A DNA stretch of 64,000 nucleotides, from positions 124,001 through 188,000 of the forward strand of contig LDYB01000020.1 of the NCBI GenBank assembly GCA_001442985.1, written 5' to 3'. Both the position numbers and the translations under genes were made by a program. Below, one piece after another: positions 1 through 7,397 of this stretch. The notes beneath the pieces were generated by a model. It had not been told where the DNA came from, ran no database searches, and was given only the letters and a program-made list of their open reading frames with translations. The number at the start of each line of letters is the position of its first letter. The stretch's first letter is position 1. This DNA is from Armatimonadetes bacterium DC. GTDB lineage: Bacteria; Armatimonadota; Fimbriimonadia; Fimbriimonadales; GBS-DC.

Positions 1-1649
1 GCCTCGGTGGAGACCATGACCTGCGTCTCGTGGCGAAACTTGTGTTCTGCCTGAATACGCGCGTCGAGGTTCATGCCGCCGTGCAGCTCGGTGACGCTAT
101 AGCCCCAGCTGCGCAGTTTCCGCACCAGATAGTCCAGCGTGTCGCGCGATTCGGTGAAAATCAGCAGTTTCTCGTCCCGACCGCGCAGTTGCAGTTCCTC
201 CAGCACCTCACGCAGCTCTTTGAGTTTGGTCTCGATGTCCTGTTCCTCGGCTTTTTTGGCGAGTTGCACCAGGTGGCGAAGGGTGTTCACCTCCTGCTGA
301 AGTTCTGCCTGGGTGGTGGCGTTGGTGAGCTTTTCGAGGAGGTCGTCTTCGATCTTGAATCGCTCTTGCTCCTCTAACTCTTCCAGCTCGTCTTCGTCGT
401 AAGGTAGCTTGCCCTGTCCCTGTTCGGTGAAGCGGACTCCGAACTGGAGATATTCTTTAAGGCGCTTGAGTCGTCTTTCGAGGGACTGGCGTGCGGCGTA
501 GATGCTGGAAGCGAAGCGGCGCTGGAGCATGAGCAGGGCGAACGCCACATTACGGTTCTCGCCCTGAAGCGCCCGCCCATACTCGCGCTCCACATATTCG
601 GTGAGCGCGTTGTAAAGCTCCTTTTCGGCGTCGCTCAGCGTAAAGGTGCGCGTGAACACATGGCGCGGCGGGAACAGCGGGCGCCCCGAAAAGTCTTTCA
701 AATCCTCTTTGAGCCGACGCAGGTAAAGGGGGTTATCACGATACTCTATCGATTGCTGGAGCGACTCCACCGTTCCGAAAAAGCCCGGGCGGAGCAGGTC
801 TAAAAACAGCCGAAAGTTTTCGGGGTCGCCCCGGTGGGGCGTGGCAGTGAGAAACAGCATCCCGTGCGTGCGCGTCGAGAGCAGCTCGCCCAGCCGATAG
901 CGGGCGGTCTTTTCGGTTTTGGAGCCGTACTGATACGCCGCCATCTTGTGCGCCTCGTCCACAATCACCAGATCCCAGTGCGCCTCCCGCAGGGTCGCTA
1001 TCACCTCCTCCTGCTTGGCGTAGTCCATCGAGGTGATAATCTGGTTCTGCTCCAGCCACACGCTGCGCCCCCAATAGGAGTCCATCACATTCCGGTCTAC
1101 CACGAGGAAATGTTCGCCGAACTTCTCGCGCATCTCGCGCTGCCACTGATATTTCAGGTGCCCTGGCACCACCAGCAGCACCCGTTGCACCACACCCCGG
1201 TATTTCAGCTCCTTCAGCAGTAGCCCCGCCATGATGGTCTTGCCCGCCCCAGGGTCATCTGCCAGCAGGAAGCGCACATCAGGCTGGCGCAGGATGTAGT
1301 GATAGACCGCCTCGATCTGATGGGGCAGCGGGTCTATCTGCGACACATTCACTGCCAGCAGGGGGTCGAACAGGTAGGCGTAGTGCAGGCGGTACGCCTC
1401 GATGCCCAGAAAAAACGCTTCAGGGTCGCCCCGAAAGTTGCGCATCAGTGGCGCTTGAACCCGCCACTGGGCAAGGTCAGCCTCTGGGAAAATGCCGTCG
1501 TAGGCTTGTTTCGTGTGAACACCCTGCGCATAGATTCGCCAGAACCCGTCCTCAAGCGGCTGCACCTGTACCACGCGCACTGGCTCGCTGAACTGGCTCG
1601 ATTCGACGATGCTCCCGATGGGCACCGGCGGCTGGCTCGCGCCCTGCAT
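1..1649 (-). CDS. SNF2-family DNA helicase/translocase, C-terminus cut by window edge
   Basis: About 549 codons are visible, reading from an ATG at 1649 to the left edge. Superfamily 2 motifs are clear: a P-loop DDPGAGKT near residues 131-138, the Walker B box IVDEAH near 229-234, and a TATPH motif III near residue 270. The helicase C-domain then begins, and the frame runs off the window inside the VSTE motif V region. The start lies 5 bases after the ATPase stop, and GGAGAAGGAG in the end of that gene can serve as its ribosome site, so the two are probably translationally coupled. Together with the DUF499 ATPase and DUF1156 methylase it forms a helicase-methylase-ATPase set. The family remodels or moves along DNA; a defence role is inferred from context. 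Confidence 0.9.
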   Translation of the reverse strand, partial: MQGASQPPVPIGSIVESSQFSEPVRVVQVQPLEDGFWRIYAQGVHTKQAYDGIFPEADLAQWRVQAPLMRNFRGDPEAFFLGIEAYRLHYAYLFDPLLAVNVSQIDPLPHQIEAVYHYILRQPDVRFLLADDPGAGKTIMAGLLLKELKYRGVVQRVLLVVPGHLKYQWQREMREKFGEHFLVVDRNVMDSYWGRSVWLEQNQIITSMDYAKQEEVIATLREAHWDLVIVDEAHKMAAYQYGSKTEKTARYRLGELLSTRTHGMLFLTATPHRGDPENFRLFLDLLRPGFFGTVESLQQSIEYRDNPLYLRRLKEDLKDFSGRPLFPPRHVFTRTFTLSDAEKELYNALTEYVEREYGRALQGENRNVAFALLMLQRRFASSIYAARQSLERRLKRLKEYLQFGVRFTEQGQGKLPYDEDELEELEEQERFKIEDDLLEKLTNATTQAELQQEVNTLRHLVQLAKKAEEQDIETKLKELREVLEELQLRGRDEKLLIFTESRDTLDYLVRKLRSWGYSVTELHGGMNLDARIQAEHKFRHETQVMVSTE

Positions 1650-1654
1650 ACGGT

Positions 1655-4297
1655 TCACTCCTTCTCCTGAATCTCAACATCAGCCTGAATTTGATTGAGC
1701 GTTTCCGGGATATTGATGTCCGCCAGGGTTTTGGGGATTTCGCCCTGCACCTCCAGTTCAACCGTGAAGCGGAAGTTGAGTCCATGACTCATCAGGGGGG
1801 TCAGCACGCCGCGCATCAGCTCATAGGTCTTCGCGCTGGGCACGGACACCCGTAGTTTGTAGCGCCGATAGCTGGGCTGCGCGGCAGGCTTTGAGGGCGG
1901 CGGGAGCGGTTCGACTGGATGCGGCTCGCCGATTACTACGGGCTGGGCAGACACGCGCTCCGACGCCCTCTCTTCGGGGGCTGGTTCGGTAGCGGGGGCT
2001 ACAGGCGGTTCTTTCAACAGCGTTGCGTCGTAGGTCAGCGCCTCGCGCGGCACGGGTTCTCTGTAGTAAGCACGCTCGCCCACGCGCACGGCGAACGCGC
2101 CCTCCTGTACCCCTCGCTGGATTGCCTGAAGCACCACCTGTTCGCTCTCCACCATCGGCAGGTGGGTGTAGCGGAAAAAGGCGTCGGTGATGTCCTGAAC
2201 CGATACTTCGTTCGCGTCGGCGGGGATTGCTTTATCCAGTATCATGCGGGGCGAGATTTGCTTCAAGAGCAGGTCATCGTCTTCTATGAACTTCCGCACG
2301 CGCTGGCTGAGCGTTTCGCGCGTGCCTGCCGTGGGCGTGCCCAGCGAGCGCCAGTCCAGCCGACCATCCCGCAGCAGCGCCACATGGCGATAGGCGTTCA
2401 GCACCAGAAACAGCTCGCCTCCTTGAAGGTCCTGAATCCGACGGTTGACGATGGCTCGGTCTTCTTCGCTGAGGGTTTTCCACAGCGCGGTATCGGCTTT
2501 GATGCGTTCGTAGGCGAGGCGTTCGCGAACGCGGTTTTGTAAAGTCGCCAGATGTTGCTCGTCCGCAACGAGGAAGACAAGCGTGTTGCGAAAGGCGCGT
2601 GGCTTCTCGCCCACTTTGTCCCACATGGCGCTCAACACGCTCTCGGTGTTGGGCTGGGAGCGCGTGTCGCGAGGGAGTAGCACACCGAGTTTCAGCTCGC
2701 GCGTGTCGGGAATATCGTCGGAGCGTTCCGGGAAGAGCAGAATTTTGGAAATCGCGCTCCCCGCGTGCTTGCGAACCGCCTGCTGAACTGCCTCCCCGAC
2801 CTGCTCGAGACTGACCTGCTCGTACTTTTCCTGCACAATCTTGTTCAGGTTCGGCTGCAGGCGAAACTCGTAGAGACCGTTCTCGTGGTGCAGGTACCAG
2901 AGCTTGCTGGTGAGGTGGTGAAGCGCGTCGCCCACCATCGCGGTCTGCAGAGCGGGGCGGAAGGCGCACAGGCGCAGCTCGGCTTCGGAGAGACCGCGTT
3001 TCTCGCCCGCGCTAAACCCGCCGAAGAAGATGGCGGTCGCCAGCCCGCGCGCCACCTGATGCGCCTCGTATTCCGTGCCCAGCTGCTTCTCCACCATCCG
3101 CGCCTGCGCCGAATCGCCCGTGATGTCGCGCTGAATCACGGAAGCAAACCTGTTGCCGATATGGCGCAACAGCTCCTGCTGAATCGCGCCGTTCGCCAGA
3201 TTGATATGAACGGGCAAAATCAGCGGTTCGGCGACGCGGCGCCGATAGAGGTCGCTCAGCACCTCGCCCAGCAGTTTCAGCACGCCACGCGTGCGCTGAA
3301 AAGTGGAAAACGACGCCCACTTCTCATACAGCAGGTCAATCACCTCCGGGTGGAAGGGGTAGGCAAGGCGCATCCGCTCCCGATAGGAATCCGAACGCGC
3401 CTTCTCGGGCAACTGCTCCGCGTGCCTCTGATAGAGCTCGTAGAACACATCCACCGTGCGACGCACTTCCGTCGGGTCGGCAATCTCTTTGAACAGGCGC
3501 TGGCGAATCACATGGAAAAACTCATCCTGCTCTACAGGGGTGTAGATGGCTTGCACGCGCCCGAAAATCATCTCCAGCTGGCGTAGCATGCGCTCGCTCT
3601 CTTCGCCGTAGGGCGTGCTGCTGGGAAGCGTCACCACCAGCACACTGTTTGGGAGGGATTTCACGACTTCGGTCAGCTGCTGGCAGAAGACCATCACCTG
3701 GGCTGCGAAGTCGCAGGCGTTCACCGCATAGGCAGCCAGCTCATCCATCAGGATGAGCGTGGGGGCGTCTTCCAGCAGGGCGCGCAGGTTCTCTGCGCCA
3801 GGCGCTCGACGCTTACGGTCATGCTCCTCCAGCAGGGCGTAGCGCCCCAGCTGCTCGGCAAACTGCCCCCAGGGCGTTTTGCCCTGGAGCGCATCGGCTT
3901 CCGTCCCGACGAAGGTCAGAATGCGCACTTCGGGCAGGGTCTCTATCTGGGCGCGTGCCAGCGTGTGCTTGACAAGCGGCGCCTCGCGGTGCGCATTCCC
4001 ATGCCGAAACAGATGATACAGGCTTATCAGCGCGTGCGTCTTCCCCCCGCCAAACGGAGTCTGCAACTGAATTACGGCGTCGCCATGCCCGGTGGTCAGG
4101 CGTCGCACCACCTGTGCCAGCAAATTTACCAGCCCCTCTGTGGGATAGGTCTGCTGGAAAAACTTTTCGGGGATTCGATACTCCAGCGCGCCCCGCTCCA
4201 GCAACACATCGCGCAGGTCGGCAGCGAACATCGAATCATCCAGCTCGCCATGAAGGATGTCCTCTCGCGGAATCGCGACCTCGTACCAGGCTTTCAT
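1655..4297 (-). CDS. DUF499-type AAA+ ATPase of a helicase-methylase-ATPase cluster
   Basis: This 880-residue protein carries a P-loop FGGGKT at residues 82-87 and a Walker B LILMDE at 181-186, the pattern of the DUF499 (COG1483) ATPases. A Pro/Glu-rich linker near residues 775-820 precedes a small C-terminal domain. The ATG at 4297 follows a GAGGGTG ribosome site. DUF499 proteins are usually encoded next to a DUF1156 adenine-methylase and a large helicase, as here, and are thought to act in phage defence; their biochemical role is not settled. The gene is intact, unlike the methylase upstream. Confidence 0.9.
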   Translation of the reverse strand: MKAWYEVAIPREDILHGELDDSMFAADLRDVLLERGALEYRIPEKFFQQTYPTEGLVNLLAQVVRRLTTGHGDAVIQLQTPFGGGKTHALISLYHLFRHGNAHREAPLVKHTLARAQIETLPEVRILTFVGTEADALQGKTPWGQFAEQLGRYALLEEHDRKRRAPGAENLRALLEDAPTLILMDELAAYAVNACDFAAQVMVFCQQLTEVVKSLPNSVLVVTLPSSTPYGEESERMLRQLEMIFGRVQAIYTPVEQDEFFHVIRQRLFKEIADPTEVRRTVDVFYELYQRHAEQLPEKARSDSYRERMRLAYPFHPEVIDLLYEKWASFSTFQRTRGVLKLLGEVLSDLYRRRVAEPLILPVHINLANGAIQQELLRHIGNRFASVIQRDITGDSAQARMVEKQLGTEYEAHQVARGLATAIFFGGFSAGEKRGLSEAELRLCAFRPALQTAMVGDALHHLTSKLWYLHHENGLYEFRLQPNLNKIVQEKYEQVSLEQVGEAVQQAVRKHAGSAISKILLFPERSDDIPDTRELKLGVLLPRDTRSQPNTESVLSAMWDKVGEKPRAFRNTLVFLVADEQHLATLQNRVRERLAYERIKADTALWKTLSEEDRAIVNRRIQDLQGGELFLVLNAYRHVALLRDGRLDWRSLGTPTAGTRETLSQRVRKFIEDDDLLLKQISPRMILDKAIPADANEVSVQDITDAFFRYTHLPMVESEQVVLQAIQRGVQEGAFAVRVGERAYYREPVPREALTYDATLLKEPPVAPATEPAPEERASERVSAQPVVIGEPHPVEPLPPPSKPAAQPSYRRYKLRVSVPSAKTYELMRGVLTPLMSHGLNFRFTVELEVQGEIPKTLADINIPETLNQIQADVEIQEKE

Positions 4298-4317: not shown

Positions 4318-4458
4318 TTATACCACATTGTGTGCAAGAGATTCTCCCTCGCCTTCATCCAGCTGGAGCTTCAGCAGGGACACCAGCCGCTCATCGGACG
4401 CCAATCGCACCTGAAGCCAGCCCTCCTGGAAGGCCTGAACAAATGAAACGCTCCTCAC
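4318..4458 (-). CDS. Possible 46-residue micro-ORF between methylase and ATPase
   Basis: A GTG codon at 4458 overlaps the methylase stop as GTGTGA and is preceded by GGGAGG. The frame runs 46 residues and stops 20 bases before the ATPase start. The product would be amphipathic, with motifs such as FVQAFQEGWLQVRL and LVSLLKLQLDEGEGES. I do not recognise it. It fills an otherwise empty 157-base gap in the operon and its composition looks protein-like, but it could be a chance frame or the remnant of a longer methylase C-terminus. Confidence 0.35.
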   Translation of the reverse strand: MRSVSFVQAFQEGWLQVRLASDERLVSLLKLQLDEGEGESLAHNVV

Positions 4459-6110
4459 ACCTCCCATCGCCGACTGAAGCCCAGCACCCCCTGCATCAGG
4501 CGACGCTCCGCATCCCCCTCGGGCAACGCCTCCGCCACCGCCTGCGCCAGCAACCACAACAACCGATCCCGATGCCGCCCTTCCGACTCCATCCACTCCA
4601 GCAACCGCGCCGTCTGACCCGACTCCCACAACCACGCCACCAGGTGCAACGCCTCTATCTTGCTTCCCTGCGCCCGCGCCCGCAACGCATCCCAGAGTGC
4701 CTGCGAGGCTTCATTCAGCTTTTCTTCGCCCGACCCCATCAGCCCCATCGTCAACTGCTCGGGGTTCGTCCGACGGCGCCCCTGCGCTGGCGCAACTCCA
4801 TCCCCCATTCCCCATCGGCGCTCCAGCGGCGCCAGCACCTTCACCCGCTTGCTCTCCCCGCTCTTGCCCTGCGCGGGCGCAATCAGGCGCCCCACGCCCC
4901 ACACCTCCGTCAACTCCAGCCCCACGCTCGCCGCCAACTTGCGCGCCTCGTCAAACGGCACCTCCGCGTGCCCATACGACCACCGATACAACAGATAAAA
5001 CTGCGACAGCGCGTCCAACTCCACCACCACCTCCCGCTCCCGCAAAATCCGCTCCAGCGCATAACGGCTCACCTGCTCCCGCACCAGCGTGAGCAACACC
5101 GACGCCCCCACCGCCTCCCCCGACGCCCGCTCCACACGCGCATACTGCCCGAACACCGCCAGCGCCGGACCAATCGCGCTGATGAACAGATCCGCCCCCC
5201 GAACCCCCGCGTCCCAGAACTGGTGCAGGCGCCGCTCTATCGCGTCCACAATCTGTGGCTTGAGGTCGCCCCAGAAGCCGACGCGCGCCCCCACCCGCTT
5301 GCGACACACCAGATAGATAGACGACGCCAGCGCGGCGTTGCCCTGAGCCAGCAGGCGCGCCTGCATTTCAGTGTGTATCGGCAGGGCGGCAGTGGGGTAG
5401 AGACCTGCCCGCAACAGCGCGTTCAGCACCGTTTCCCACGCTTCGGTGGTTTTGTGGGCGAAGACGATAATCGCAATCCCGTCGGGTTTCAGCACGCGGT
5501 GGATTTCGCGGAACGCCTGCTCCAGCATCGCCTCAAAGCGTTGTTTGGCGGCGTCCATTCCACCTGCTTTGGAGGCGTCGGCGACCATTTCCTGGGACTT
5601 GGGAGTGAGGGGTGTGGCGAACAGGTCGGGGTGCAGGTCGCCGATGGTGCGCTTGAGCCAGACATAGAAGAAGTCGGAAAGGTCGGCGTAGGGCACATTA
5701 TCGTAGTAGGGCGGGTCGGTGAGAACGGCGTCAAAGTGGTTATCGGGGTAGGGCAGGTCGGTGGCTGTGCCGTGAACGGCTTGCGGTAGGACTTCAGCGG
5801 GCGGGATGGCGCAGAGGTGGGCGACAATCTCAACGGAGTCTGTAAGCATACTTTGCCAACCGCTGGGATTACCCAAAGGATTCATTTCGTAGTAATCCCA
5901 AAGCATTGGCAGGGCTTGTCGGGTAAAGGTGAAGCCGATGGCTTCTGTTTGGGAAATCAAGCGACACAGCACTGAGTTGCGATCGCTCAAGCGACTCACT
6001 ATCAGCGCCAGATAGGTCGCCACCGCTTTTGCAAACTCGGCGTCCGCGCCCTGCTCCATCATTAGCCGATACGCCTGCCGCACCCCCTCCGCAAACATTA
6101 GCAACGCCAA
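4455..6110 (-). CDS. DUF1156 adenine-specific DNA methylase, C-terminal half (downstream of in-frame stop)
   Basis: This frame holds the catalytic half of a COG1743/DUF1156 methylase. Motif IV is TDPPYYDNVPYADL, followed by FFYVW and a second Rossmann-like stretch (IHRVLKPDGIAIIVFAHK). It is in exactly the same frame as the N-terminal half at 6141-7397 and separated from it by one TGA codon. The codons between the TGA and the first possible start read WGDVFNARQR, which continues the family consensus. The first possible starts are TTG 6110 and ATG 6098, and neither has a Shine-Dalgarno sequence, so independent translation is doubtful. It is either a dead 3' fragment or is reached by read-through. 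Confidence 0.85.
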   Translation of the reverse strand: MALLMFAEGVRQAYRLMMEQGADAEFAKAVATYLALIVSRLSDRNSVLCRLISQTEAIGFTFTRQALPMLWDYYEMNPLGNPSGWQSMLTDSVEIVAHLCAIPPAEVLPQAVHGTATDLPYPDNHFDAVLTDPPYYDNVPYADLSDFFYVWLKRTIGDLHPDLFATPLTPKSQEMVADASKAGGMDAAKQRFEAMLEQAFREIHRVLKPDGIAIIVFAHKTTEAWETVLNALLRAGLYPTAALPIHTEMQARLLAQGNAALASSIYLVCRKRVGARVGFWGDLKPQIVDAIERRLHQFWDAGVRGADLFISAIGPALAVFGQYARVERASGEAVGASVLLTLVREQVSRYALERILREREVVVELDALSQFYLLYRWSYGHAEVPFDEARKLAASVGLELTEVWGVGRLIAPAQGKSGESKRVKVLAPLERRWGMGDGVAPAQGRRRTNPEQLTMGLMGSGEEKLNEASQALWDALRARAQGSKIEALHLVAWLWESGQTARLLEWMESEGRHRDRLLWLLAQAVAEALPEGDAERRLMQGVLGFSRRWEV

Positions 6111-6140
6111 ACGCTGACGCGCGTTAAATACATCTCCCCA

Positions 6141-6143
6141 TCA
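6141..6143 (-). other. In-frame TGA interrupting the DUF1156 methylase
   Basis: The minus strand reads ATG ACG TGA TGG GGA GAT. Upstream codons give RYGMT and downstream codons give WGDVFNARQRLALL, with no frame change. It separates the AdoMet-binding motif (first half) from the DPPY catalytic motif (second half). Confidence 0.9.
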
Positions 6144-7397
6144 CGTCATGCCATATCGCTGAACACGAAAGCCCAGTGTCTCCTTCGCTGGCAGCGGCTC
6201 ATCCGGCACAGGCTCTATTCCCCACTCCGCTCGCAAACGCGCCTCCCACTCCCCCAGCGCCCCCCGCGCCCGCTCAAACACCGCCCTATCCGCCGCCGTC
6301 GCCAAACGATACCTCTTGCCCGCACGATCCGAATAGTGCAACACCACCGCCACCAACCGCTCCCCCGCACGACCCGACTGAAACAACGCCCGAACCCGCT
6401 TGTCGTCCGTCGTCTCCCCACACACTGGACACCGCGCGTGCGCCCGCACCACCGTGCCCTGCTCCGGGTCAAACTCAATCGCCTCGCCATTCTGACCCAC
6501 TATCTCAAACTCCACCCGCTTCGCCGCCCTGTCGGGCACCAGCCGCAACGCCACCTGCTTATTCTCTTTTTTCGCCAGCCAGAGATTCGCTGTGAGCGGT
6601 ATCTCCGCCCCGCAAATCGGGTTCTGGCACGGGATGGTACGCATCCAGTAGTAGCCCACAGGAATCGCGCCGTCGGGGTCAGGGGGGTAGAAGGCTTGCA
6701 GGTGCGCCCGCGCCCATTCCAGCACCCACGCGCCCCACGCCGCCACCGCCTGCACCAGCGGCGACTGCGCCTCTTCGGCTTCCAGCAGGCGCGGCGCCCC
6801 TTCGCTGTTCGGAGGCAAAACAAGACGGGGTGCTGTTGCCCCCCTGTTGTCCCCCCGCAGGCGGGGGGACGCTTCCGTCTCTCCCTCCCCGCCTGCGGGG
6901 AGGGTCGGGGTGGGGCTTGCTCCAAACCGCTGTGGATACTCCAGCACGCAACGGTTCAGCAACACCGCAATCGGGTTGTAGTCCAGCGCGTGCGTCTCGC
7001 AGCCCAGTCGCAACGCCTCCAGCGGGATGCTTCCCCCACCTGCAAAGGGGTCCAGCACGCGCGGCGCCCGCCCGCCGAACGCCTCGCGAATGAGCGCCCG
7101 TGCCTTCTGCAGGTTCGGGTTCTTCTCATCCTGCACCGCCTCAAAGGGGGTGAGCGCTTCAATCAGTTTGAGCCATTCGTTACGCTTGCTGGGAATATCG
7201 GGCAGCAGCGCGGCGAGCGCGGTGGCGCGAGATGCCGCCAGCGGCTTGCGCGACCACCAGATATGGAGCGTGCTGATGTGCCCGTGTCGGAGGTTTTTTT
7301 CACGGGTGGACTCCCGTGAGACGAGTTCCAGCGGAAAGACGCTCTCAATCAGGCGACGCGCAGGTGCTGGCTCAGCGTTTGGGTTCTGGGCGTACAT
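6141..7397 (-). CDS. DUF1156 adenine-specific DNA methylase, N-terminal half ending at premature TGA
   Basis: The 418-residue product begins with the DUF1156 signature (LIESVFPLELVSRES, HISTLHIWWSRKPLAASRA). It contains the AdoMet-binding motif DPFAGGGSIPLEALRLG and two Zn-ribbon Cys pairs (CQNPICG, CPVCG). It ends in RYGMT followed by TGA at 6143-6141. The same frame continues for 560 more codons through the catalytic DPPY motif, so a full-length protein would be about 980 residues, normal for the family. The codon could have been CGA (Arg) before one transition; that is inference. A GC-rich palindrome pair is inserted in frame at 6849-6904. No ribosome site is obvious, and the gene starts 54 bases after topA. 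Confidence 0.88.
   Translation of the reverse strand: MYAQNPNAEPAPARRLIESVFPLELVSRESTREKNLRHGHISTLHIWWSRKPLAASRATALAALLPDIPSKRNEWLKLIEALTPFEAVQDEKNPNLQKARALIREAFGGRAPRVLDPFAGGGSIPLEALRLGCETHALDYNPIAVLLNRCVLEYPQRFGASPTPTLPAGGEGETEASPRLRGDNRGATAPRLVLPPNSEGAPRLLEAEEAQSPLVQAVAAWGAWVLEWARAHLQAFYPPDPDGAIPVGYYWMRTIPCQNPICGAEIPLTANLWLAKKENKQVALRLVPDRAAKRVEFEIVGQNGEAIEFDPEQGTVVRAHARCPVCGETTDDKRVRALFQSGRAGERLVAVVLHYSDRAGKRYRLATAADRAVFERARGALGEWEARLRAEWGIEPVPDEPLPAKETLGFRVQRYGMT
6849..6904. repeat. Paired GC-rich palindromes inside the methylase coding frame
   Basis: Two perfect 22-base palindromes lie 12 bases apart: 6849-6870 (8-base arms around GCAGGC) and 6883-6904 (8-base arms around GCCTGC). They are encoded in frame as a low-complexity insert (around PTLPAGGEG and SPRLRGDNRG) after the LEYPQRFG segment. 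This looks like a repeat insertion tolerated in a coding region. Confidence 0.75.

Follow-up and report, generated by a model that had tools for sequence, protein, structure and literature searches.

The Hma system was described in PADLOC as the association of a helicase (HmaA), a methylase (HmaB), and an ATPase (HmaC) (PMC8565338). It has since been reclassified as a Type-1 BREX-related (BR) system centred on the DUF499 ATPase, with BR methylases described as near the Type-3 BREX methylases (PMC12839542). In the BREX system of Escherichia coli, deletion of brxX abolishes methylation and defence alike (PMC6326788). The window studied here (the whole stretch of 64,000 nucleotides that was analysed) carries the same three components as Hma in one operon-like, three-gene anti-phage array in which hmaC and hmaA are open; unlike in the described system, a stop codon breaks up hmaB. 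The features are given below by their positions in the window.

3 to 1658, minus strand: hmaA, SNF2 helicase with a NO VEIN (PD-(D/E)XK-like) C-terminus, extending past the window edge
1655 to 4297, minus strand: hmaC, DUF499 AAA+ ATPase of 880 amino acids, intact
4455 to 7397, minus strand: hmaB, DUF1156 N6-adenine DNA methyltransferase of 980 codons with one TGA inside
6144 to 7397, minus strand: N-terminal part of hmaB, with the DUF1156 helical domain, Rossmann strands 1 and 2 with motif I, and the start of the target-recognition insert
7032 to 7058, minus strand: motif I VLDPFAGGG, residues 114 to 122, AdoMet binding
6141 to 6143, minus strand: the TGA inside the frame, codon 419, where the nearest homologue (G180) and G224 encode Arg
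4455 to 6140, minus strand: C-terminal part of hmaB, 561 codons and a stop, with the remaining target-recognition insert, strands 3 to 7 with DPPY, and the C-terminal helical domains
5706 to 5717, minus strand: motif IV DPPY, residues 561 to 564, catalytic

All three proteins match the PADLOC models of HmaA, HmaB, and HmaC. HmaA (PDLC00659, 3.3e-128; domains SNF2, Helicase_C, and NOV_C) is complete and uninterrupted when the contig is followed past the window edge (1,108 amino acids, L019:10336-13659), and HmaC matches both PDLC00662 (3.9e-152) and PF04465 (1.1e-49). A preliminary description of this DNA had called the helicase and ATPase partners open; both are, and both retain their conserved residues, including the GxD...EVK of the HmaA nuclease-like end. 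Since HmaC and HmaA are open, this is, by sequence, a complete Hma, i.e., Type-1 BR, locus whose sole defect lies in the methylase. Upstream of hmaB, the neighbour is a topoisomerase I gene, and no second HmaB was found in this genome.

Translation of the minus-strand frame 7397-4455 gives 980 residues with a single stop, the TGA at 6143-6141, which stands as residue 419 between ...GFRVQRYGMT and WGDVFNARQRLAL..., so that HmaB is not encoded in one open reading frame. The best stretches of the HmaB profile PDLC00661 follow one another in order (137-382 in the N-terminal half, 422-858 in the C-terminal half), and the N-terminal half also matches Pfam DUF1156. Because the same profile continues past the stop without the loss of a residue, this is the split of one gene, beyond chance; a purely mechanical open-frame test would be weak, since 18 further stops of the window also have at least 150 open codons on either side, owing to GC-rich shadow frames. 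The continuous frame of about 980 codons proposed earlier was thus confirmed by translation and profile matches, and so were the AdoMet-binding motif in its first half, the DPPY in its second, and the family consensus on both sides of the TGA, the segment YGxxxWGDLFxxRQ being unbroken in the aligned relatives. As for the second half, previously delimited as 6110-4455, its homology does begin directly after the stop, at 6140, and position 6110 is merely the first TTG past it. Apart from the stop, this HmaB contains an extra low-confidence segment (approximately residues 160 to 205, window 6840-6925) that is organised around a pair of short palindromes rich in GC (CCCCGCAGGCGGGG and its inverse) and has no counterpart in most relatives; a mobile repeat was considered for this insert and rejected, the genome containing one such site only.

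In an AlphaFold2 model of HmaB built from 11 homologues (mean pLDDT 79.7, pTM 0.77), and by our own reading of its strand numbering, Rossmann strand 1 spans residues 113-116 and strand 2 residues 134-139, followed by the long target-recognition insert; strand 3 (539-542) and strand 4 (555-560) come next, with DPPY (561-564) right after. The insert after strand 2 agrees with the arrangement described for BR methylases (PMC12839542). A structure search with the model reached only generic Rossmann methyltransferases, weakly and never at E <= 0.001, and a sequence search against solved structures gave nothing informative. Residue 419 is modelled inside the insert, between strands 2 and 3, so that neither half would hold a whole active site: the first fragment is predicted to contain the AdoMet-binding strands only and the second the remainder of the catalytic core. 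The model therefore agrees with the earlier expectation that neither half alone should methylate DNA.

We compared the site with relatives from a phylum search of 291 genomes, 45 of which have HmaB-like genes; used alone as a query of the genome contigs, the HmaB protein of the window recovered no relatives. A split at residue 419 is absent from every aligned relative, all of which read through. The closest homologue (G180, 60% identity) has LTRWGDLFNARQ at the site, with Arg encoded by CGT, and the Arg codon of G224 is CGG, which makes a CGA-to-TGA change plausible. The preliminary description had proposed such a recent nonsense change: the nonsense codon is there and Arg in both homologues is compatible with the proposal, but the ancestral CGA is itself inferred, TGG and others being further possible single-step ancestors. 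A comparison with related strains had been recommended at the same time; among the aligned relatives, there was neither a split at 419 nor a two-gene split with a conserved start at the junction. At columns at least 95% conserved in 35 other HmaB, this protein departs at 1 of 52 before the stop and 0 of 38 after it, a rate no worse than in intact genes; identity to G180 is 68% before the stop and 64% after it, like other pairs. As all strongly conserved residues of the downstream 561 codons are kept, the break is recent or polymorphic, and the second half has not been drifting for long.

RF2 scores over the cut-off in the genome, TGA is a normal stop, and 23 of the 37 large nonoverlapping open reading frames of the window end in TGA (a crude set, in which some frames may be spurious). 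The best eight matches to the tRNA-Sec model are ordinary tRNAs according to ARAGORN. The first in-frame starts past the stop are TTG 6110, TTG 6104, and ATG 6098, with negligible pairing to a generic anti-Shine-Dalgarno sequence for the first two and weak pairing for the third; GTG 6083 and ATG 6062/6059 have moderate Shine-Dalgarno-like pairing (-5.4 to -5.7 kcal/mol). By the same measure, hmaC reaches -6.9 and hmaA -7.4, and hmaB at its own ATG 7397 scores 0.1, which makes this pairing a weak guide. On in-frame starts and Shine-Dalgarno pairing, no credible start for the second half was found at the junction, in line with the earlier remark that it has no ribosome site, the moderate matches lying further down. 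Neither a tandem repeat nor a slippage tract nor a relevant inverted repeat was found at the stop site.

In two other lineages, HmaB is split around inserted gene modules. In G122 (L154:6865-10220, contig C32), a nucleotidyltransferase (MNT) and HepT-like pair splits HmaB immediately ahead of Rossmann strand 3, at residue 535/539. Start and stop codons of the four reading frames overlap in the manner of a coupled operon, an arrangement suggestive of a functional split enzyme and not of decay. In an Aquificaceae metagenome-assembled genome (JALSHV010000028.1, L191:2024-9575), about 4.8 kb containing a DarT-macrodomain fusion gene, an AAA ATPase-like gene, and others splits HmaB at the same profile position as in G122 (474/475); a separate ATG is present for the C-terminal half. 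These splits flanking modules, at the same structural junction in two distant lineages, are more unusual than the stop of the window.

Altogether, a recent nonsense mutation in hmaB of a complete three-gene Hma (Type-1 BR) system is the probable explanation of these data, and we weighed it against four others. An error of the consensus or a strain mixture, in which one base would be wrong or the TGA would be carried by part of the population with full-length HmaB elsewhere, would take a single base change in a draft genome (26 contigs, completeness 95.45) and would fit the perfect conservation of the downstream half. Nevertheless, random errors, if common, should be as frequent in hmaA and hmaC, whose lengths are comparable, whereas in the phylum set hmaC is broken in 0 of 41 cases and hmaA in 2 of ~52, both in the contaminated G067; error and true mutation are inseparable at this one site, and we consider this explanation rather unlikely. 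A functional split, with the second half made by reinitiation and the two polypeptides assembling into an active methylase, could draw on the moderate Shine-Dalgarno-like matches at GTG 6083 and ATG 6062/6059 and on the natural splits that HmaB may tolerate (the MNT/HepT module of G122, the 4.8-kb insert of Aquificaceae). Those splits, however, lie just before strand 3 and not at 419, where no relative is split; moreover, the junction lacks a good start, and a start at 6083 or later would drop the conserved WGDVFNARQ segment, making this option very improbable.

The preliminary description had also considered read-through and a switchable ON/OFF state, and neither was supported. Programmed read-through or recoding of the TGA would yield some full-length HmaB and explain why the frame after the stop is intact with its residues conserved, but the TGA codon is not conserved, relatives having sense codons there and broken relatives having TAG or TAA at other positions; with RF2 present, TGA a normal stop, and only ordinary tRNAs among the best eight tRNA-Sec matches, we give it hardly any credence. 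Reversible phase variation of the methylase could draw on BREX, for whose methylase PglX frequent disruption of the coding sequence and phase variation are reported (PMC9122589). At the present site, the change resembles a simple substitution, with neither a tandem repeat nor an invertible repeat, and a switch is thus the remotest of the explanations considered.

Other broken HmaB genes were found among the relatives. The closest homologue, G180, has a TAG at a conserved Trp, residue 500 (L048:7062), with HmaC and HmaA open; G101 has a TAA at Tyr 570, and the second HmaB of G183 is degraded by stops and frameshifts. In an ANME-2 archaeon (L188:9625), HmaB contains one in-frame TAG and its partners are open. 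The 80-locus set of the wide scan also includes HmaB frameshifts in L168 and L193, an insertion in L191, broken HmaC in L168, L176, L196, and L215, broken HmaA in L157, L176, L185, and L233, and a shortened HmaA in L193. A broken methylase beside open partners is, hence, a fact of the deposited sequences in three loci (this genome, G180, and L188), and we infer that this state is tolerated or selected. In the 45 same-phylum genomes, 5 of ~50 HmaB are broken versus 2 of ~93 HmaA and HmaC (one-sided Fisher p ~0.05), an enrichment that is suggestive only; in the wide scan, the counts are 4 of 80 for HmaB, 4 of ~62 for HmaC, and 5 of ~70 for HmaA (p ~0.8), and nonsense changes only, over both sets, give p ~0.2, all denominators being approximate by a few loci. 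A TGA of G117 about 10 bases from a contig end was left out of the count. We therefore rejected HmaB as a hot spot of disruption, as it is not significantly more broken than HmaA or HmaC when all loci are pooled; the loci were chosen by similarity, so that these break rates are not unbiased, and the compared draft genomes may carry errors of their own.

On the Ignavibacteria chromosome CP054675.1 (L168:9510-9535), HmaB is frameshifted where an A8 tract precedes T and G6. The hmaC gene of this locus is frameshifted as well, so that sequencing indel errors and slippage are both possible. Contig breaks fall within HmaB in G185, G186, G223, G007, and G117. G185 has two near-identical HmaB 3' ends (L047:3-2600 on contig C139 and L155:1-125 on contig C93), one followed by unrelated genes as an orphan methylase and the other by HmaC and HmaA. 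Contig breaks were rejected as a sign of HmaB variation, since the G185 break (127-base contig overlap) accompanies the second near-identical end and paralogues or repeats may explain it.

Under the nonsense reading, translation would end after residue 418, leaving a product that includes the AdoMet-binding strands and some of the target-recognition insert and lacks the catalytic DPPY half. The second half would probably not be produced in a useful amount, so that the cell is predicted to lack N6-adenine methylation by HmaB. As BREX can neither modify nor restrict without its methylase, truncated HmaB would, by analogy, leave a silent system, probably off as a whole and not attacking its host, with loss of methylation and of defence. 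The earlier suggestion that a defence system may have lost its modification arm, at least conditionally, accords with the stop and the intact partners that we observed, the loss of methylation being its predicted consequence. Against the nonsense reading stand the draft state of the genome, with a possible consensus error or strain allele, the moderate ribosome-binding matches near GTG 6083 and ATG 6062/6059, and the lack of decay downstream, which is equally expected if some product is still made.

Taken singly, the hmaB stop is most likely the ordinary decay of one gene, similar single breaks occurring in relatives. If real, it would provide a naturally occurring null allele of the methylase in a Type-1 BR/Hma system, the mechanism of which has, to our knowledge, barely been tested. 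Under classical restriction-modification, a cell that loses only the methylase would be expected to die. As the nuclease-like residues of HmaA are kept, an HmaA acting without HmaB should harm the host; under that condition, keeping an intact HmaA nuclease with an inactive methylase would put the cell at risk, a point against the nonsense reading. Survival of the host fits BREX-like logic or a mixed population. Hosts surviving with an intact helicase-nuclease and no methylase would favour BREX-like logic, in which the methylase is needed for restriction, over classical restriction-modification. A bolder and doubtful, though conceivable, hypothesis starts from the recurrence of HmaB loss with intact HmaA and HmaC in this genome, G180, and ANME-2, each with its own stop: the helicase-nuclease arm of BR systems could be harmless to an unmethylated host, the methylase being part of target recognition, and knockout of hmaB could be a way of turning the system OFF that is safe, takes little to reach, and has been used repeatedly.

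The locus shares with Type-1 BR systems (PMC12839542) the tripartite association of a DUF499 ATPase, a DUF1156-type N6-methylase, and an SNF2 helicase with a PD-(D/E)XK-like C-terminus, as well as the position of the methylase insert. It differs from them by its broken methylase and by an ATPase with no HEPN fusion in a Pfam scan. Compared with the disrupted pglX/brxX of BREX, as cited in PMC9122589, the methylase belongs to another family and carries a simple nonsense codon instead of a phase-variable tract, but in both cases it is the methylase of a related defence system that is interrupted.
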